32,370 bases of DNA from Sphingomonas bacterium (GCA_028289965.1 JAQGKS010000118.1:1-32370), one strand, 5' to 3'; counted from the first letter of the stretch, positions 15,433 through 28,388 are shown. Notes: generated by a model from the sequence alone, not told the origin. Program-made: numbers and translations.

Positions 15433-15507
15433 GGGCGCGTAGCTCAGTGGTAGAGCACTGTGTTCACACCGCAGGGGTCGCTGGTTCAATCCCAGCCGCG
15501 CCCACCA
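15433..15507 (+). tRNA. tRNA-Val (anticodon CAC)
   Basis: A complete 75-nt tRNA with encoded CCA. The acceptor stem is GGGCGCG (15433-15439) with CGCGCCC (15497-15503), discriminator A, then CCA. The D arm is GCTC/GAGC. The anticodon stem CTGTG/CGCAG carries the loop TTCACAC, giving anticodon CAC, which reads valine GUG. The T arm is GCTGG-TTCAATC-CCAGC. An integrase gene ends 32 bp downstream, so its 3' end is the likely phage attachment site. Confidence 0.96.
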
Positions 15508-16850: not shown

Positions 16851-17011
16851 CGGGCCTGATCCTGCAGCAGCTTGGTCTTGGCCTCGCCCAGCTGAGCGAG
16901 GACGCTAGTGGTGTTGATCAGCACGTCGAGCTGGGCAGCTGTCAACTTCAGCCCTCGGCCGCGCTCCGAAGCCCGGCTCAACGCGCGCTCCAGATCCATC
17001 AGCGGCGTCAT
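16670..17011 (-). CDS. Small phage protein overlapping the integrase 5' end
   Basis: A possible 113-residue protein. The first 65 residues look like a real helical domain (MDLERALSRASERGRGLKL followed by a long amphipathic segment with LNTTSVLAQLGEAK-like character). The last 60 residues, Ser/Thr/Arg-rich, are read in a different frame across the integrase start. The ATG overlaps the methyltransferase stop (ATGA), the same coupling used throughout this operon, which supports translation. The 181-bp overlap with integrase is unusually long, so an integrase start farther downstream is an alternative. No family is recognised. Confidence 0.55.
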   Translation of the reverse strand: MTPLMDLERALSRASERGRGLKLTAAQLDVLINTTSVLAQLGEAKTKLLQDQARCRAMRDQSTNADTSGLTGTAGGTARYAPLTSPSSATTPQRSGSEAVRQARQRTKRASGP

Positions 17012-17592
17012 GCCGCCTCTCCGAACTTGTCGACGTCGTTGCCCCAGCTCTCCCAGCCCTTGCGGCGCCGGCGGGCGAACAGCTCGACATAGGGACCGTC
17101 GAACATCGCCTCGATGTCGCCGGCGACGCGATCGGGCTTGCGGCTATGCTCGCGCACCGGCTCGACGATCAGCTGGCGGACGCCGCGGCTTTTCGGCAGC
17201 CCCATGTTTCCGATCATGCCGAGCAGGCACATCTCGGGATTCGCCCGGGTGTAGTAGCCGGTGCCCATGTGCCAGCCTGTGTCCCGCTGCGTTCGCTTCG
17301 CCCAGGTGAAGGCGGTGGTGACGTAGCGGAAGCCCCATCGGCGCATCGTTTCCAGCCCATGCTCAAGCATCGGATCGGTGACCCACAGGAACAGGGCGCA
17401 GCTGTCGCCGGCAAGGTGCCCGACGGGCAGCGCCTTGATCTGCTCGATCGACATCGTCCGATAGTGGCGGTTGGGATTCCGGCTCTCGCCCTTCGCCGAA
17501 TAGTTTTCGAACGGCCACGCGGGATCCGCATGGATGACGCGGTAGCCGAACATCTGCAGGCCGGCGAAGGGCCATGAAGCCGCGGATGCCAT
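17008..17592 (-). CDS. MT-A70-family DNA adenine methyltransferase
   Basis: A 194-residue MT-A70-family methyltransferase, expected to make N6-methyladenine in DNA with S-adenosylmethionine. The catalytic DPPW motif appears as DPAW (23-26, in VIHADPAWPFENYS). Other family blocks are FLWVTDPMLEHGL (about 68-80), the TTAFTWAKR stretch and the EMCLLGMIGN region. The ATG at 17592 overlaps the previous stop (TGATG), and the longer upstream frame is spurious. No restriction enzyme is present, so it is an orphan, perhaps protecting phage DNA or altering host methylation signals. Its target sequence is unknown. Confidence 0.88.
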   Translation of the reverse strand: MASAASWPFAGLQMFGYRVIHADPAWPFENYSAKGESRNPNRHYRTMSIEQIKALPVGHLAGDSCALFLWVTDPMLEHGLETMRRWGFRYVTTAFTWAKRTQRDTGWHMGTGYYTRANPEMCLLGMIGNMGLPKSRGVRQLIVEPVREHSRKPDRVAGDIEAMFDGPYVELFARRRRKGWESWGNDVDKFGEAA

Positions 17593-17822
17593 CAGCGTGG
17601 CCGAGGCGCCGGCATGGCTGCCGCAGCAGCGGGGTTCAACCACAGAGCCTCGACGCGTGGACGGGCGCCGAGCTTCGACATCTGCAGCTCGAGGCGGTCG
17701 CGCGCGAGATCCAGCGACACGCGCTTGCCACCCTGGTTGCCATCGCGGAACAGCGCTTCGCGAGTGTGGCGCGAGCGCGGGCGACCAGCTGGCCAGGTGA
17801 GGGGATATGCTGCTGCGCTCAT
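17592..17822 (-). CDS. Small phage protein, hypothetical
   Basis: A 76-residue protein, coupled on both sides (ATGA at its start, TGATG at its stop), which supports translation. It begins MSAAAYPLTWPAGRPRS, which I have seen at the start of phage and prophage hypothetical proteins of alphaproteobacteria that continue with a J-domain-like helical region. The middle (about 30-60) is charged and probably helical, and the end is Ala/Pro-rich. Function is unknown. Confidence 0.72.
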   Translation of the reverse strand: MSAAAYPLTWPAGRPRSRHTREALFRDGNQGGKRVSLDLARDRLELQMSKLGARPRVEALWLNPAAAAAMPAPRPR

Positions 17823-18067
17823 AGCGCTTCTCCGGTGATGCGCGCGGCGATCGCCGCCGGCGGGTTGTCTCGGTGCCAGCGGCGCGCATCGAGGCAGGCG
17901 GCTGACCAGTCGCGGATCCGCTTCTCGGCCCAGGCGGCGCTGATCGCTTCGCGCAGCAGGCGAGGGGTGCGGAACCAGTGCGGGCGGCACATCAGGATGC
18001 CGCGGCGAACCTCCACGGTGCAGCCGGGAGCGTCGCAGATGCTCGGCGGGCGAGGGGCCCGCTTCAC
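17819..18067 (-). CDS. Small putative zinc-binding phage protein
   Basis: An 82-residue protein with Cys11, Cys16, Cys27 and His30 (CDAPGC ... MCRPHW), a plausible single zinc site, then a helical Trp-rich region (about 31-70). Its start overlaps the upstream stop and its stop overlaps the next start, both ATGA. Similar short CxnC...CRPHW proteins occur in phage early operons without assigned role. DNA or protein binding is a guess. Confidence 0.78.
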   Translation of the reverse strand: MKRAPRPPSICDAPGCTVEVRRGILMCRPHWFRTPRLLREAISAAWAEKRIRDWSAACLDARRWHRDNPPAAIAARITGEAL

Positions 18068-23744: not shown

Positions 23745-24404
23745 ATGATCAAGGTTGAGCGCCTGGCGGAGCGCATGCGGGCAAAGGGGCTCTCGCAGGC
23801 AGAACTTGCGCGCCGGGTCGGCATCTCCCAGCAGGCCATCGGTAAGCTCGTGAACGGAAGTTCGCGCAGCACACCGCACATCGGGCAGATCGCCACTATT
23901 TTAGAGACGTCCCCAGCATATCTTGTTGGCCAATCGGATGACCCCGCTGAAGGTGCGCCGCTGCTAGCGACGCCGGAGGTGATCGCAGATCAGCTCGAAC
24001 TCGTCCGCATCAACGAGGTGTCGCTCGATTATGGGATGGGCGGGAGCTATCTCGACGATGCCGTCGAGTTGATCCCGCGCTATTTCCCCGAGGTATGGCT
24101 GCGCAGCGTGACAGATACGCCGCCAGAAGCCCTATTCTTCGCACGCGGGCGCGGGGACTCGATGCAGCCTACGCTCCTGGATGGAGACATGGTGCTAATC
24201 GATCGGTCGGAGCGGATGATTCGCGAGCAGGATCGGATTTGGGCCATCGCGTACGGTGACATCGGATCGATCAAGCGTCTTCGCCGCACGCCTCGGGGGG
24301 AGGTTAAGGTGATGTCCGACAATCCGACTGTGTCCGAGGAAGTGATCGGCAGCGATGACTTGTACGTGATCGGGCGCGTTGTGTGGATTGGCCGTAAGAT
24401 CTAA
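23745..24404 (+). CDS. CI/LexA-type repressor with S24 peptidase domain
   Basis: A 219-residue prophage repressor. The N-terminus is an XRE helix-turn-helix (LSQAELARRVGISQQAIGKL, about 16-35) and the C-terminus an S24 (LexA/UmuD-like) autopeptidase domain with Ser139 in GDSMQPTL and Lys177 in GSIKRL. RecA-stimulated self-cleavage after DNA damage would release the lytic operon. The usual Ala-Gly or Cys-Gly cleavage pair before the peptidase domain is not obvious; a Gly-Gly at 99-100 (YGMGGS) is the nearest candidate. The start ATG follows a strong GGGGGAAG. It is divergent from the Cro-like gene across two operators and is the first gene in the direction of the accessory block. Confidence 0.92.
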   Translation: MIKVERLAERMRAKGLSQAELARRVGISQQAIGKLVNGSSRSTPHIGQIATILETSPAYLVGQSDDPAEGAPLLATPEVIADQLELVRINEVSLDYGMGGSYLDDAVELIPRYFPEVWLRSVTDTPPEALFFARGRGDSMQPTLLDGDMVLIDRSERMIREQDRIWAIAYGDIGSIKRLRRTPRGEVKVMSDNPTVSEEVIGSDDLYVIGRVVWIGRKI

Positions 24405-24462
24405 TCGATCGCACCACGATCGCCATGCTACCGGTCGGAAAGCGGACGGGCGGTAAGCGCCG

Positions 24463-24476
24463 ACTTGCGGATATTC
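24463..24476 (+). repeat. Intergenic repeat, copy 1 (core)
   Basis: ACTTGCGGATATTC, 22 bp before the start of the 161-residue gene. It matches the cores of copies 3 and 4 at 12 of 14 positions. An upstream AAGCGGACGG (24440-24449) may belong to the same decayed element. Confidence 0.5.
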
Positions 24477-24498
24477 ATCCGCACTGTAGCGTGACGGC

Positions 24499-24984
24499 AT
24501 GGTCACAGTGTTCATGCCGCTACTCAACGAGGGAACCGATGTTTGGCGGCCTGTCGAAGTGACCCCGCACGACGGAGCATCGTATCGGGTGGACGGTCCG
24601 ATGCCGCCTGACGAGGCGTGGGAGTTCACGCCGGGCAGTCTCATCAAGTGCAGGTGGAAGAAGTTTGGTGACGGTGAACACAGGCTGATACCAGTCGGGT
24701 CCGCCTGGACGGTTAGCTCCGCACTTGGAGATCATTTGAGACGGAGCGCCGGTATCTCAATTGGCTCTCTCCCATTGATAGCCGCGGTTGGCTGGCTGCC
24801 TCGCGGCCCTGAGGGGCGCACAGAGATTGTTCCAGTTCTGCTGACCAGCACAGTCTGGACGCTCATTGCTGTCATCACGTTAATCTGGCTGAAGCCTCGG
24901 GCACTCTTCGGCAAATCGGCAATTTGGTCAATGCTCGGCTTCGCCATCCTTTTCTGCTTGGTAGGCCTTTCCGGCGAACTCTGA
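24499..24984 (+). CDS. Accessory membrane protein with N-terminal EGTDVWRP domain
   Basis: A 161-residue protein of unknown function. Residues 1-66 form a small soluble domain with EGTDVWRPVE and PDEAWEFTPGSLIKC. I associate this pattern with stand-alone bacterial proteins of unknown function. It is joined to three transmembrane helices (about 85-100, 111-131, 141-157). Such a fusion looks unusual. It lies 94 bp after the repressor on the same strand, in lower-G+C DNA, so it may be expressed in the lysogen. No Shine-Dalgarno is obvious before the ATG. A superinfection-exclusion or stress role would fit the position but is not supported by homology. Confidence 0.7.
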   Translation: MVTVFMPLLNEGTDVWRPVEVTPHDGASYRVDGPMPPDEAWEFTPGSLIKCRWKKFGDGEHRLIPVGSAWTVSSALGDHLRRSAGISIGSLPLIAAVGWLPRGPEGRTEIVPVLLTSTVWTLIAVITLIWLKPRALFGKSAIWSMLGFAILFCLVGLSGEL

Positions 24985-25099
24985 ACGAGGTCGGCGTTCC
25001 ACCAGTTTTCACCATTGGGGCATAAGGAGTCGGCGATCGATCCTAGTGGCAGCAAGCGTCCCAATAGCAAACCACCGGCAAGTCTGCGATGATCGAGGA

Positions 25100-25351
25100 A
25101 TGAAGCGGAAGAACCTCATTCTTGGCTTGAACGCGGCGCTAGCTCCGGTGCTCATTACACTCACCTTGGTTGCGTCCCAGTCCGACGAACTTAGGACGCT
25201 CGTAGCGCGCGAGGACGGCGGAATGCATGGCGTTCTTGCGATCATGGTTGCAGTCGTGACGGCGTATTCCGCAGTGTTCCAACTGTGGCTTGCCAAAATA
25301 TTTTGGGAGCCCCGTCTCAATCGGGCCCTTGACAAGAATGGTCGTCGTTGA
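25100..25351 (+). CDS. Small two-helix membrane protein, hypothetical
   Basis: An 83-residue protein with two hydrophobic helices (about 6-25 and 44-65) joined by a charged loop (SQSDELRTLVAREDGG) and a basic C-terminus. A GAGGA element touches the ATG, closer than normal, so the true start may differ slightly; the frame extends back to 25046 without a better start. It is the second gene of the accessory block, 115 bp after the first. I recognise no family. Small membrane proteins near phage repressors are sometimes exclusion factors, which is only a hint. Confidence 0.55.
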   Translation: MKRKNLILGLNAALAPVLITLTLVASQSDELRTLVAREDGGMHGVLAIMVAVVTAYSAVFQLWLAKIFWEPRLNRALDKNGRR

Positions 25352-25359
25352 AGGCTCAT

Positions 25360-25393
25360 TGAACGGCAGCTACCCACCATCAACGGCCGATCC
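25360..25393 (+). repeat. Intergenic repeat, copy 2 (degenerate)
   Basis: This copy aligns loosely with copy 4: CAGCTACCCACC corresponds to CTGCTTTCCACC, and the following CGGCCGATC to CGGACGTTC. It is the weakest copy listed and lies directly after the 83-residue gene. Confidence 0.35.
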
Positions 25394-25627
25394 AACCCGT
25401 CATGATGAGGGTGCCGTAGATCATGGGCAGCCGTAATAGGCGAGCACTGCAGGAGTGGCGATGAGGAGGACGAACCCCGCTGACGCCTTTCGGCTGACCA
25501 CGTGGTGACAATACCCTGCGGCCGTCGCGCGGCAATCTTCGGTCCGCAGATAAATCGCGTCAAATGCCGACAGTGGGTGGCCACCACCTTCAGCCGGACC
25601 CTCGATCCGAAGCCGCCATCGAGAAGC

Positions 25628-25659
25628 AGACGTCAGCTAGCGCCTAGTTGCGGACATTC
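25628..25659 (+). repeat. Intergenic repeat, copy 3
   Basis: The core AGTTGCGGACATTC (25646-25659) is preceded by AGACGTCAGCTAGCGCC, which lines up with the GCGACTGCTTTCCACC part of copy 4. It lies 25 bp before the ATG of the 211-residue gene. Confidence 0.5.
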
Positions 25660-25684
25660 GGAGCGCCGGTTAGGGTGGCCTTTG

Positions 25685-26320
25685 ATGAAGTCGGCTGCTT
25701 GCCTCTGGCTCTTTGGGATCGGATTCGCTGCACTTGCCGTCTTGCTCGCCTGCGTGTCTAAGTATATTGGCAATGAGGATTATCGTAGGCTGGCATTGAT
25801 CGCGCAGAATAATACCCGAACATATGTCGATCAATATGTCGCTTCTCGACACATTGCGGGCGACGAGGTCGCCTTGATGCTCGCACACTTGCCACCACCA
25901 CCGTCGCTAGGGGCGGAGAGTGTGCGGTTCGTGGCGGTCCCGACCTGTGCCAATACGATGTTCGCCTTTTCCCTCGCTGCCGACGGCACCGGCCGCCTAA
26001 TCATCGTCGTCCGGCAGCAGGGTGCCAACCTCCATTCGGTCGCAAGCAGACGAACATTCAGCATGCCTGCAACTGTCACCAAGTCTTTGTTGGCAGAGTT
26101 CGACCGGCTTGCACCTCCTTGGCAGGGTGATGCAGAAATCGCCTTTGATGGGACCCACGTTGGCTTCGAGCGCGCTCATGCCGGAACAACCTTTTCCGGA
26201 GGCGACGCTACCAGTACGTACGCACATCTAGCGGCTGCCGTGAAATCCTTGCTGACTCCCTATGTCGCCGAACTCGCAGGAGTAGATCATGCTTGGCTTC
26301 ATCCTTCAGCGGGCTGCTAA
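25685..26320 (+). CDS. Accessory exported or membrane-anchored protein, hypothetical
   Basis: A 211-residue protein that I do not recognise. It begins with a hydrophobic leader (about 4-24) ending VLLAC, which could be a lipobox (Cys23) or a membrane anchor, so the rest (25-211) is extracytoplasmic. That part is mixed alpha/beta in appearance, with PPPPSLG near 74-80 and strands such as RLIIVVRQQG. G+C here is about 47-55% by eye, well below the phage and host genes. The ATG at 25685 is chosen because the leader starts there; the open frame upstream to 25502 lacks coding character. It stands as a single gene with its own spacer on both sides. Confidence 0.6.
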   Translation: MKSAACLWLFGIGFAALAVLLACVSKYIGNEDYRRLALIAQNNTRTYVDQYVASRHIAGDEVALMLAHLPPPPSLGAESVRFVAVPTCANTMFAFSLAADGTGRLIIVVRQQGANLHSVASRRTFSMPATVTKSLLAEFDRLAPPWQGDAEIAFDGTHVGFERAHAGTTFSGGDATSTYAHLAAAVKSLLTPYVAELAGVDHAWLHPSAGC

Positions 26321-26361
26321 ACTTTAGTGGCAGAACGAAGCTCGCCGAAGCCTGTCCGGAG

Positions 26362-26391
26362 GCGACTGCTTTCCACCACTTGCGGACGTTC
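26362..26391 (+). repeat. Intergenic repeat, copy 4 (best preserved)
   Basis: GCGACTGCTTTCCACC followed by ACTTGCGGACGTTC (26378-26391). This copy shares its left half with copy 5 (14 of 16 bases in CTGCTTTCCACCACTT) and its right half with copies 1 and 3, which links all of them. Confidence 0.55.
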
Positions 26392-26503
26392 AGGCTCCCG
26401 CCTATGCCCCCATGGGTGAGGCTTGGTTCGCCGGGATGACTTTTGGACCCTCTCCGATTCCAATACCACAAATGAATGCAGCGGCGTCCGGCGGAGAAAT
26501 GTC

Positions 26504-27028
26504 TTGCGTACCGAGAAGCTTGTCGCGGGCCTCCTAGCTTGCCTATTTGGCAGCTCCGAAATCAACGCTGAGGTCGTTAGTTTTGACTGCGACACGCCGG
26601 GAAGCCATTCGTCAGAGTTTGCACGTGACGTGTCTAAGACGTCCCTTGAAGCTGGCGGCGCGGTCAGGTTGGTCGAAGAGCGGCCGTTTAGAAATGCGAT
26701 TCCGGCGGCGAATATATTCTTCAGTAAGGAGCCAGGCGTGGCCCTCGTCGGCCTCAGGTTCATTGCTTATCCTGAGAAACGAAAAGTGATTTCGGTTATG
26801 CTCTTCCGAGACGGCCAGCCCGACGCTCAAAAAGTGATAGCCGAGATCCAGAAGACCAGCGATGCGATCCCGTTCAATATGTCCATGCGGGATCAAGAGG
26901 TCACCGTGGTCGTTGCAGGGCAGACATTCGTGATGCCTGTCTCCAAGGGAACGGTGAAGCAGATCTCGCTGTCCTGCTTCAGCGCCCAATTCAAGTTTGC
27001 GGCTGTTGAACTCAAGGAGTCCGATTGA
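26504..27028 (+). CDS. Accessory exported protein, hypothetical
   Basis: A 174-residue protein with a signal peptide (about 1-22, ending SSEINA) and an exported domain of about 150 residues containing two or three cysteines and beta-rich stretches such as RKVISVMLFRDG. The start is best placed at a TTG (26504), because GGAG lies 7 bp before it and the signal peptide begins there; an upstream TTG at 26423 would add 27 residues and hide the leader. I recognise no family. It is the last gene of the accessory block and faces the convergent tail operon. Base composition is unlike the phage genes on either side, suggesting later acquisition. Confidence 0.6.
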   Translation: MRTEKLVAGLLACLFGSSEINAEVVSFDCDTPGSHSSEFARDVSKTSLEAGGAVRLVEERPFRNAIPAANIFFSKEPGVALVGLRFIAYPEKRKVISVMLFRDGQPDAQKVIAEIQKTSDAIPFNMSMRDQEVTVVVAGQTFVMPVSKGTVKQISLSCFSAQFKFAAVELKESD

Positions 27029-27368
27029 TAGCCGGTTGTGGCGGTTGCCGACCTTCAGCGGTATCTCTCGGTCGGTGGACTCAGCAGCGCGTTCGGTGGG
27101 TTGGCGTCGTATCGCAGTATGCTGGGGCTTCGGCGCTACGTCGGCGTGTGGGGCAGGAAATTTGCCAGCGGCCAAGGCGCTTTTTGCGCGAGCGTGGCGC
27201 AGATGTCGTCATATCGCATGAACGATCGGCGCGCCTCAGGCTGACGAGTTATCGCACGCAAGAAGTCCGCCAGCGTGTCCGATCACTCCCTTCGATCTGA
27301 AAAAACGAGCGTCCGCTATCCACCACTTCCCGCCGTTTCGTTGATGGCTCTACGGCCTAGGCCATGTG
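27029..27368. other. 340-bp spacer between accessory block and gene D
   Basis: No gene is supported on either strand; short frames here lack starts with ribosome-binding sites and any domain. It contains repeat copy 5 and a 10-bp palindrome GGCCTAGGCC (27354-27363) next to the gene D stop. Convergent transcripts should end here, but no classical terminator is visible. Confidence 0.5.
27309..27339 (+). repeat. Intergenic repeat, copy 5
   Basis: GCGTCCGCTATCCACCACTT followed by CCCGCCGTTTC. The left part matches copy 4 at 14 of 16 bases; the right part is diverged. It lies 30 bp from the gene D stop. Confidence 0.45.
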
Positions 27369-28388
27369 CTATCCGCTCACTTCCAGCTGCAGCGACGTGG
27401 TGAGTCCGCGGTCGGTAAGGCTGTGCGCCACTTCCGCCACCAGCCACTGGACAGCATCGATTGACGCCTTGAAGCCCTCAGCCCTGGCGCGCTGCTCCGG
27501 GTAGATGTCGGGTCGACCGAGTGCCAGGTCGAAGCTCAGCTTGAGCGGTTGCCGCATAGCCCGCCCGCGCTCAGCCTCCGCCGCGCGGCGCGCCGCGGCC
27601 TCGGTCGGATACACCCGCGACAGCCGCTTCACCTTGGCCGTGCCGCCGGCGGTGACGTCCTGCTTCTTCGCGCCCTTGCGATCGTGCCAGCTGGCGGTGA
27701 CGCCAGAGACCTCCTCGCGCTTCTCGATGCGGAAGCTGTGCCGATCGCCGTCGCGCCGACGGATCGTGATCGAGGGGAGCGGCTTGCCCGCGGGCGTGGT
27801 GCCGGCGCCCTTGCGCGCGAAGATCAGGCTGCCGCGCTTGATGGTGGCAACCGCATCATGCTCGCGGCCGAGGCGGCGCAGCAGCGCCAGATCGCTCTCC
27901 CGGCTCTGCGCCGCGGCCGTCACGGCTATGCCGGCGAGCGCCGGCGCGCAGCGTGCGATGAGCTTGTGGCGCGCGGCGACCTCGGCGACGATCGCGCCGA
28001 TCGTCGTGTCGTGCCAGCTCTTCTCGCGGCGGGTGCGGATATCGCTCGTGAAGTCGGCCGAGCGCGCGCGGATGGTGATGATGTCGGGCGGCCCGCTATG
28101 TTCCACTTCGTCGACGGTGAAGCTGCCCTTGTCGACCAGCCCGACCTTGACGTCGCTGCCCTGTTTCCAGCCCAGCTGGACGTGGAGCAGCGCGCCGGTC
28201 TTCGGCAGTGCCATGCGGCCGTCGCTGTCATCAATGACGATGTCGAGCTGGTCGGCCTCGTCACCGCGCTTCTCGGTCAAAGTGAGCGAGACCAGGCGCG
28301 GGCGGATGCGGTTCGTCAGGTCGGCGCCGTCGAGCGTCACCTTGAAGTCGGCAATGTTGGCGGTAAAGGGCGCGGGGGCATCGGTCAT
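27369..28388 (-). CDS. D: Phage late control gene D protein (tail spike hub)
   Basis: A 339-residue P2 gpD-family protein, the baseplate hub component of contractile-tailed phages related to T4 gp27 and VgrG. It has the family's N-terminal region (DFKVTLDGADLTNRIRPRL), an internal block SADFTSDIRTRREKSWHDTT (about 110-129), then DLALLRRLGREHDAVA (about 165-180), and a C-terminal region with VYPTEAAARRAAEAE. The length is normal. Its ATG overlaps the gpU stop (ATGA). It is the last gene of the leftward tail operon, as in P2, but it is followed by accessory genes on the opposite strand instead of ogr. Confidence 0.92.
   Translation of the reverse strand: MTDAPAPFTANIADFKVTLDGADLTNRIRPRLVSLTLTEKRGDEADQLDIVIDDSDGRMALPKTGALLHVQLGWKQGSDVKVGLVDKGSFTVDEVEHSGPPDIITIRARSADFTSDIRTRREKSWHDTTIGAIVAEVAARHKLIARCAPALAGIAVTAAAQSRESDLALLRRLGREHDAVATIKRGSLIFARKGAGTTPAGKPLPSITIRRRDGDRHSFRIEKREEVSGVTASWHDRKGAKKQDVTAGGTAKVKRLSRVYPTEAAARRAAEAERGRAMRQPLKLSFDLALGRPDIYPEQRARAEGFKASIDAVQWLVAEVAHSLTDRGLTTSLQLEVSG

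Follow-up and report, generated by a model that had tools for sequence, protein, structure and literature searches.

P2-like phages are known for a fixed genomic position at which the cargo differs from member to member, some carrying restriction-modification genes there; in P2 the old/tin locus lies between gpA and gpQ (PMC9122126). In integrons and CALINs, one small, mostly orphan gene lies between co-oriented palindromic sites, arrays are strain-specific, units are duplicated and moved whole, and phage-borne CALINs exist (PMC9892861); integrons are reported to be very rare in Alphaproteobacteria, in which a few complete ones occur (PMC9024848). The pdif (Xer/dif) modules of Acinetobacter likewise place genes between short imperfect palindromes and involve tyrosine recombinases; their dif sites are 28 bp long (11+6+11), and each module is flanked by a C/D and a D/C site (PMC6449649). 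REP/RAYT systems consist of short palindromes dispersed in intergenic DNA.

Here we describe a block of four genes that shares features with each of these systems. It occupies positions 24405-27368 of a 32,370-nt contig of Sphingomonas bacterium (GCA_028289965.1 JAQGKS010000118.1:1-32370), the whole of which was analyzed and is called the window below. The most economical account of the block, to which we give a probability of about two in three, is that it is a short, partly decayed sphingomonad cassette array in the cargo site between gene D and the CI repressor of a P2-like prophage.

The cargo site between gene D and the CI repressor

The site is bordered on the left by the CI repressor (23745-24404, plus strand; HTH_3 and Peptidase_S24 in Pfam, phrog_4 in PHROGs) and on the right by phage gene D, which encodes the tail protein gpD on the minus strand (27369-28388; phrog_52 at E 1e-130, Phage_GPD). 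Between them, just as an earlier note on this DNA had reported, lie four plus-strand open reading frames of low G+C, here called A (24499-24984, 161 aa), B (25100-25351, 83 aa), C (25685-26320, 211 aa) and D* (26504-27028, 174 aa, TTG start), the last name keeping the fourth gene of the block distinct from phage gene D. Their G+C contents are 0.584, 0.560, 0.572 and 0.549, compared with a window value of 0.666. The spacers, which measure 94, 115, 333, 183 and 340 bp in order from CI to gpD, are also low in G+C, so that the low G+C marks the whole island. Elsewhere in the contig, a tRNA-Val gene (cac, 15433-15507) directly adjoins the phage integrase (15540-16850), a position that is probably both the attachment site and the prophage's left end; the contig stops at 32370 and the right end falls beyond it. 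The phage early region also holds a gene (17008-17889) that we take, by eye, to encode an MT-A70-like (m6A-type) methyltransferase.

We took 80 viral contigs with a gpD relative, and the border could be placed in 64 of them. Fixed flanks around variable cargo were found in all 64, in the same order as in the window (D, then a variable stretch, then CI, cro or the next early gene), and the same variation was seen at 20 loci in sphingomonad prophages. In the 42 contigs that yielded a CI gene, the interval measures 18 bp to 6.8 kb with a median of 1.4 kb; the longest interval among the 64 contigs reaches 7.6 kb, and all 55 that exceed 600 bp have a G+C below that of the late side, with a mean difference of 0.093. 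The comparison with related phages that the earlier note had proposed thus bears out the swapping of content at this locus. The cargo includes a C5 methylase with Vsr, a HATPase-type restriction protein and a type IIG-like enzyme, as well as HIRAN, DUF2939 and small membrane proteins. The D-CI interval serves generally as a site for cargo. It resembles the best-known P2 hotspot in its variable cargo, fixed position and, in some members, restriction-modification genes, but it lies between gpD and CI rather than between gpA and gpQ (PMC9122126), and its cargo here is what we read as a repeat-bounded cassette array; the likeness to old and tin that had been drawn for this block does not extend to position.

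In the D-CI interval of L086, L109 and L129 a DNA cytosine methylase stands beside ATPase-like proteins, with Vsr in L086, where it was tested; PADLOC gave no match for the two L086 partners or for two proteins from L129, which are perhaps an unlisted defence system. In L115, L124, L145, L152 and L114 we found a recurring family with two transmembrane (TM) segments (MRDFLA...ALVKPMPRLGMGTRK), which has no Pfam match (L152 copy), lies beside a HIRAN-type protein in several contigs, and is a second envelope-protein cargo of the site.

The four proteins and their relatives

No significant match to any of the four proteins emerged from Pfam, PHROGs, PADLOC or NCBIfam, gene A giving a weak match to SitI3 immunity (E 0.058), and no nucleotide matches to the block were found in phages and plasmids. 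A single query, made by joining the four proteins, was run by tblastn against 397 same-family genomes, and relatives of A, C and D* were found as single genes in other genomes. The relatives of A are stand-alone chromosomal genes in five genomes, matching only the first ~66 residues at 37-49% identity; those of C are lone genes in five genomes (22-30% identity) in which the motif DGT..FER..G...SG is conserved; and the D* family, with ten sequences, is found in Sphingomonas, Novosphingobium and Pelagerythrobacter and has FDCD and C...QFKF invariant. These relatives support the reading frames of C, of D* and, over its N-terminal domain, of A; B, for which no relative was found in the 397 genomes, is the least certain of the four genes. 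Seen by eye, the neighbours of the relatives are mostly what we take to be ordinary chromosomal genes, for example recA, ribosomal-protein and DNA-repair genes; these neighbourhoods contain no piece of this P2-like prophage, and the relatives of A, C and D* are absent from the phage contigs scanned.

The four products had been described as membrane or exported proteins. By hydropathy this holds for A, in which a soluble N-terminal domain (residues 1 to ~66) is followed by two C-terminal TM segments, for the orphan B, with two predicted TM segments, and for C, with one N-terminal TM anchor; the N-terminal hydrophobic stretch of D* is weaker (hydropathy peak 1.38) and we read it as a probable signal peptide, with D* probably exported. 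The single-sequence fold of C was unusable (pLDDT 46), and D* was modelled as an all-beta jelly-roll (pLDDT 84.5, pTM 0.79) whose best Foldseek matches are galectins (galectin-10), CBM66 and alginate lyases (E ~3e-6 to 2e-5, with galectin-10 and CBM66 at 3e-6; TM-scores 0.4-0.6); from this predicted fold and these matches, a sugar-binding or adhesive role for D* is plausible. The products of the block look envelope-directed, and some component of the cell envelope is probably what they bind or modify.

The earlier note had gone on to propose that the genes could form a superinfection-exclusion or host-fitness set. Its view of them as accessory, envelope-directed and placed at a site of swapped content stands. 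The link to exclusion is not supported as proposed: nothing ties the four genes to it, a PADLOC search returned no match up to E 1, and the relatives of A, C and D* were found only as lone chromosomal genes; superinfection exclusion is a possible, putative role of the block. That reading also overlooked the palindromic repeat in the spacers and, with it, the repeat-bounded cassette array that in our view accounts best for the layout.

A palindromic repeat in the block and in sphingomonad arrays

The sequence TTGCGGACRTTC is common to the spacers before C and D* and occurs before A with one mismatch. In other sphingomonads there are many copies of a longer palindrome of ~37 nt, with the consensus GAACGTCCGC-TTTCCACCCATT-GCGGACATTC and ~10-bp arms around 12 bp. 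A position weight matrix (PWM; null maximum 4.9) trained exclusively on repeats from outside this genome, chiefly those of G013 and G010, locates plus-strand copies in the window before C (25626-25662, score 23.2), before D* (26358-26394, score 31.8) and after D* (27305-27341, scores 21.1 and 19.4), the last being partly decayed with a degenerate right arm. A covariance model that leaves out the window copies (R1) also reports those before C (25.1 bits, E 2e-5) and D* (25.6 bits, E 1.4e-5), and does not report the copy at 27305 at E up to 5. A plus-strand half-copy before A (24443-24479) has the right arm TTGCGGATATTC only, and is weak because its whole-site PWM score of 2.8 lies below the null maximum; no repeat was found with the PWM in the spacer between A and B. 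This erosion (a half-site before A, an A-B spacer free of copies, and a degenerate arm in the copy that follows D*) counts against the cassette reading.

Within the assembly that contains the block (3.0 Mb in 301 contigs, with 87% completeness) the core TTGCGGACRTTC has exactly two copies, both in the block; since it is absent elsewhere in this genome, the block was probably imported. Neither the window block nor an array matched Rfam, and base-pair covariation in the hairpin is not above that of shuffles, so we make no claim of RNA structure. No prior account of the sphingomonad repeat or of a cassette system was found in the open-access papers searched and, as the search covered open access only, the repeat may already be described in the subscription literature.

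At least one repeat match is present in 128 of 249 family genomes, and some have more than 20, clustered; with up to 27 candidates scored per genome, these per-genome counts are lower bounds. Among 20 array regions, picked post hoc for holding repeat clusters, 64 of 66 pairs of neighbouring repeats share one orientation; the typical spacing is between a few hundred bases and ~1 kb, and the interval often holds a single small gene. By mechanical gene calls, the longest open reading frame (ORF) in an interval is co-oriented with the repeats in 38 cases and opposed in 29, which is no clear bias and weighs against the cassette reading. The repeat also lies just upstream of the start, on the gene's strand, in eight of the ten chromosomal relatives of A and C.

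Three exchanges follow the repeats, each with unrelated flanks: a cassette duplicate within G141 (L219) that is 97% identical over 520 bp, repeat to repeat; a repeat-bounded C-type cassette shared by G177 and G320, which are two species (89.7% over 814 bp); and two loci of G013 whose match (93.8% over 497 bp) has both ends at the palindrome centre. The G141 array, of about nine intervals, lies beside tRNA-Val, and four congeners of G141 have an empty site, where the same flanks stand 73-334 bp apart with no repeat. Because the same repeat separates long rows of exchangeable single genes in related bacteria, the block looks like imported cassettes. The D-CI intervals of the other phages examined, in both the viral contigs and the sphingomonad prophages, contain no convincing array, so that the phage case is one prophage and the chromosomal arrays are those of many genomes; repeat matches in the D-CI interval of L141 (E 0.04 and 0.19) were weak and treated as chance. 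A dense repeat variant, CTAATGTCCGC...GCGGACATTAG, is found around recombinase genes in G152 and G242 (L270 and L271), and is possibly a lineage-specific version of the site.

Dispersed palindromes are frequent in bacteria, and the block could be an ordinary moron block, its four genes having been gained singly at a cargo site that accepts any content while REP- or MITE-like palindromes, now decayed in the window, came along. However, co-oriented arrays, repeat-bounded exchanges and a repeat before the relatives of A and C are unexpected of passive REPs, and in contrast to REP/RAYT systems the repeat-rich genomes checked have no Y1 (IS200-like) transposase (0/7, controls positive); the repeat is not of the RAYT type. 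We consider such a piecemeal origin unlikely.

Position relative to gene starts bears on a second alternative, in which the repeat is a 5' regulatory element (an operator or leader hairpin) of co-regulated envelope genes and not a recombination site. Starts fall 10-32 nt past the repeat in 29 of 79 cases, against 32% at random, which is no enrichment and counts against the cassette account; a start peak at +20 nt (9/79) is enriched and was spotted after the fact. The right arm lying ~20 nt before many starts would suit a regulatory element, as would the frequency of exported or membrane-bound products, a hydrophobic N-terminus being found in 17 of 42 cassette ORFs and in 30 of 144 background ORFs (p 0.01), a bias that also suits the make-up of the window block. 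The repeat copy after the last gene (27305), the exchange boundaries inside the repeat and the shuffle-level covariation all speak against this explanation, which we regard as quite improbable.

A candidate recombinase and the proposed movement of cassettes

A tyrosine recombinase of ~208 aa, essentially a catalytic domain, is encoded within or next to arrays of G013 and G141. Of the 14 genomes checked that have both, 10 have it no more than 1.5 kb from a repeat, a limit chosen post hoc, and this proximity has p 7e-8 under a chance expectation of 10% that is an assumption. Judged by proximity, it is the best candidate for acting on the repeat. Its co-occurrence with the repeat is weak (13 of 29 repeat-rich genomes versus 70 of 220 others) and its family is common among plasmids of proteobacteria, PLSDB giving 350 records at E 1e-30, so that it may instead be a passenger. 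Copies of the family are found at L219:13105-13731 and L231:5717-6343, and many copies among the matches listed are annotated as a generic integrase or unannotated.

With co-oriented sites around single genes (64/66 pairs) and three whole-unit exchanges, the repeat-bounded arrays have the same layout as integrons, and both the phage-borne CALINs and the few complete alphaproteobacterial integrons cited above would leave room for a true integron array (attC, CALIN) with unusual sites. Yet the R' box GTTRRRY occurs in 2 of 105 repeat copies and the R'' box RYYYAAC in 0 of 105, and the better of two recombinases scores 23 bits on the integron-integrase model, far below the cut-off of 265, the other giving no match; near the block in its own genome, no IntI-type integrase was found. 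Because the repeats lack the attC boxes and the enzyme does not resemble IntI, integron membership fails, and we hold an integron origin to be very improbable. Nor does the repeat agree with the pdif module, with its 28-bp 11+6+11 site and inverse flanking orientation (PMC6449649): here ~10-bp arms surround 12 bp, and co-oriented copies form chromosomal arrays in sphingomonads. We could not match this mode of gene swapping to known integron or dif systems.

In the cassette account that we favour, a cassette would be one small, usually orphan gene between two ~37-nt repeats, often beginning ~20 nt past the repeat. Cassettes would move as units, with exchange at or inside the repeats, and the most likely agent would be a tyrosine recombinase such as the ~208-aa enzyme, although such boundaries could also result from homologous recombination or from the action of a different enzyme. 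The prophage would have taken its cassettes from another sphingomonad, the direction of transfer that we infer, and would have kept them, presumably expressed and functional, as lysogenic cargo. We tentatively suggest, at somewhat less than even odds, that this represents a new sphingomonad cassette system apart from integrons and dif, in which the ~208-aa recombinase, a catalytic domain only, would act on the ~37-nt sites and so build arrays of small orphan genes, many of them envelope-directed, and that a P2-like phage has captured such cassettes and can carry them between species.

The cassette reading is directly testable, with the site, the candidate enzyme, the cassettes and the empty sites all named. 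If it is true, a separate system would account for the way in which sphingomonads collect single small genes and trade them, and a temperate phage would be a carrier of their cassettes.
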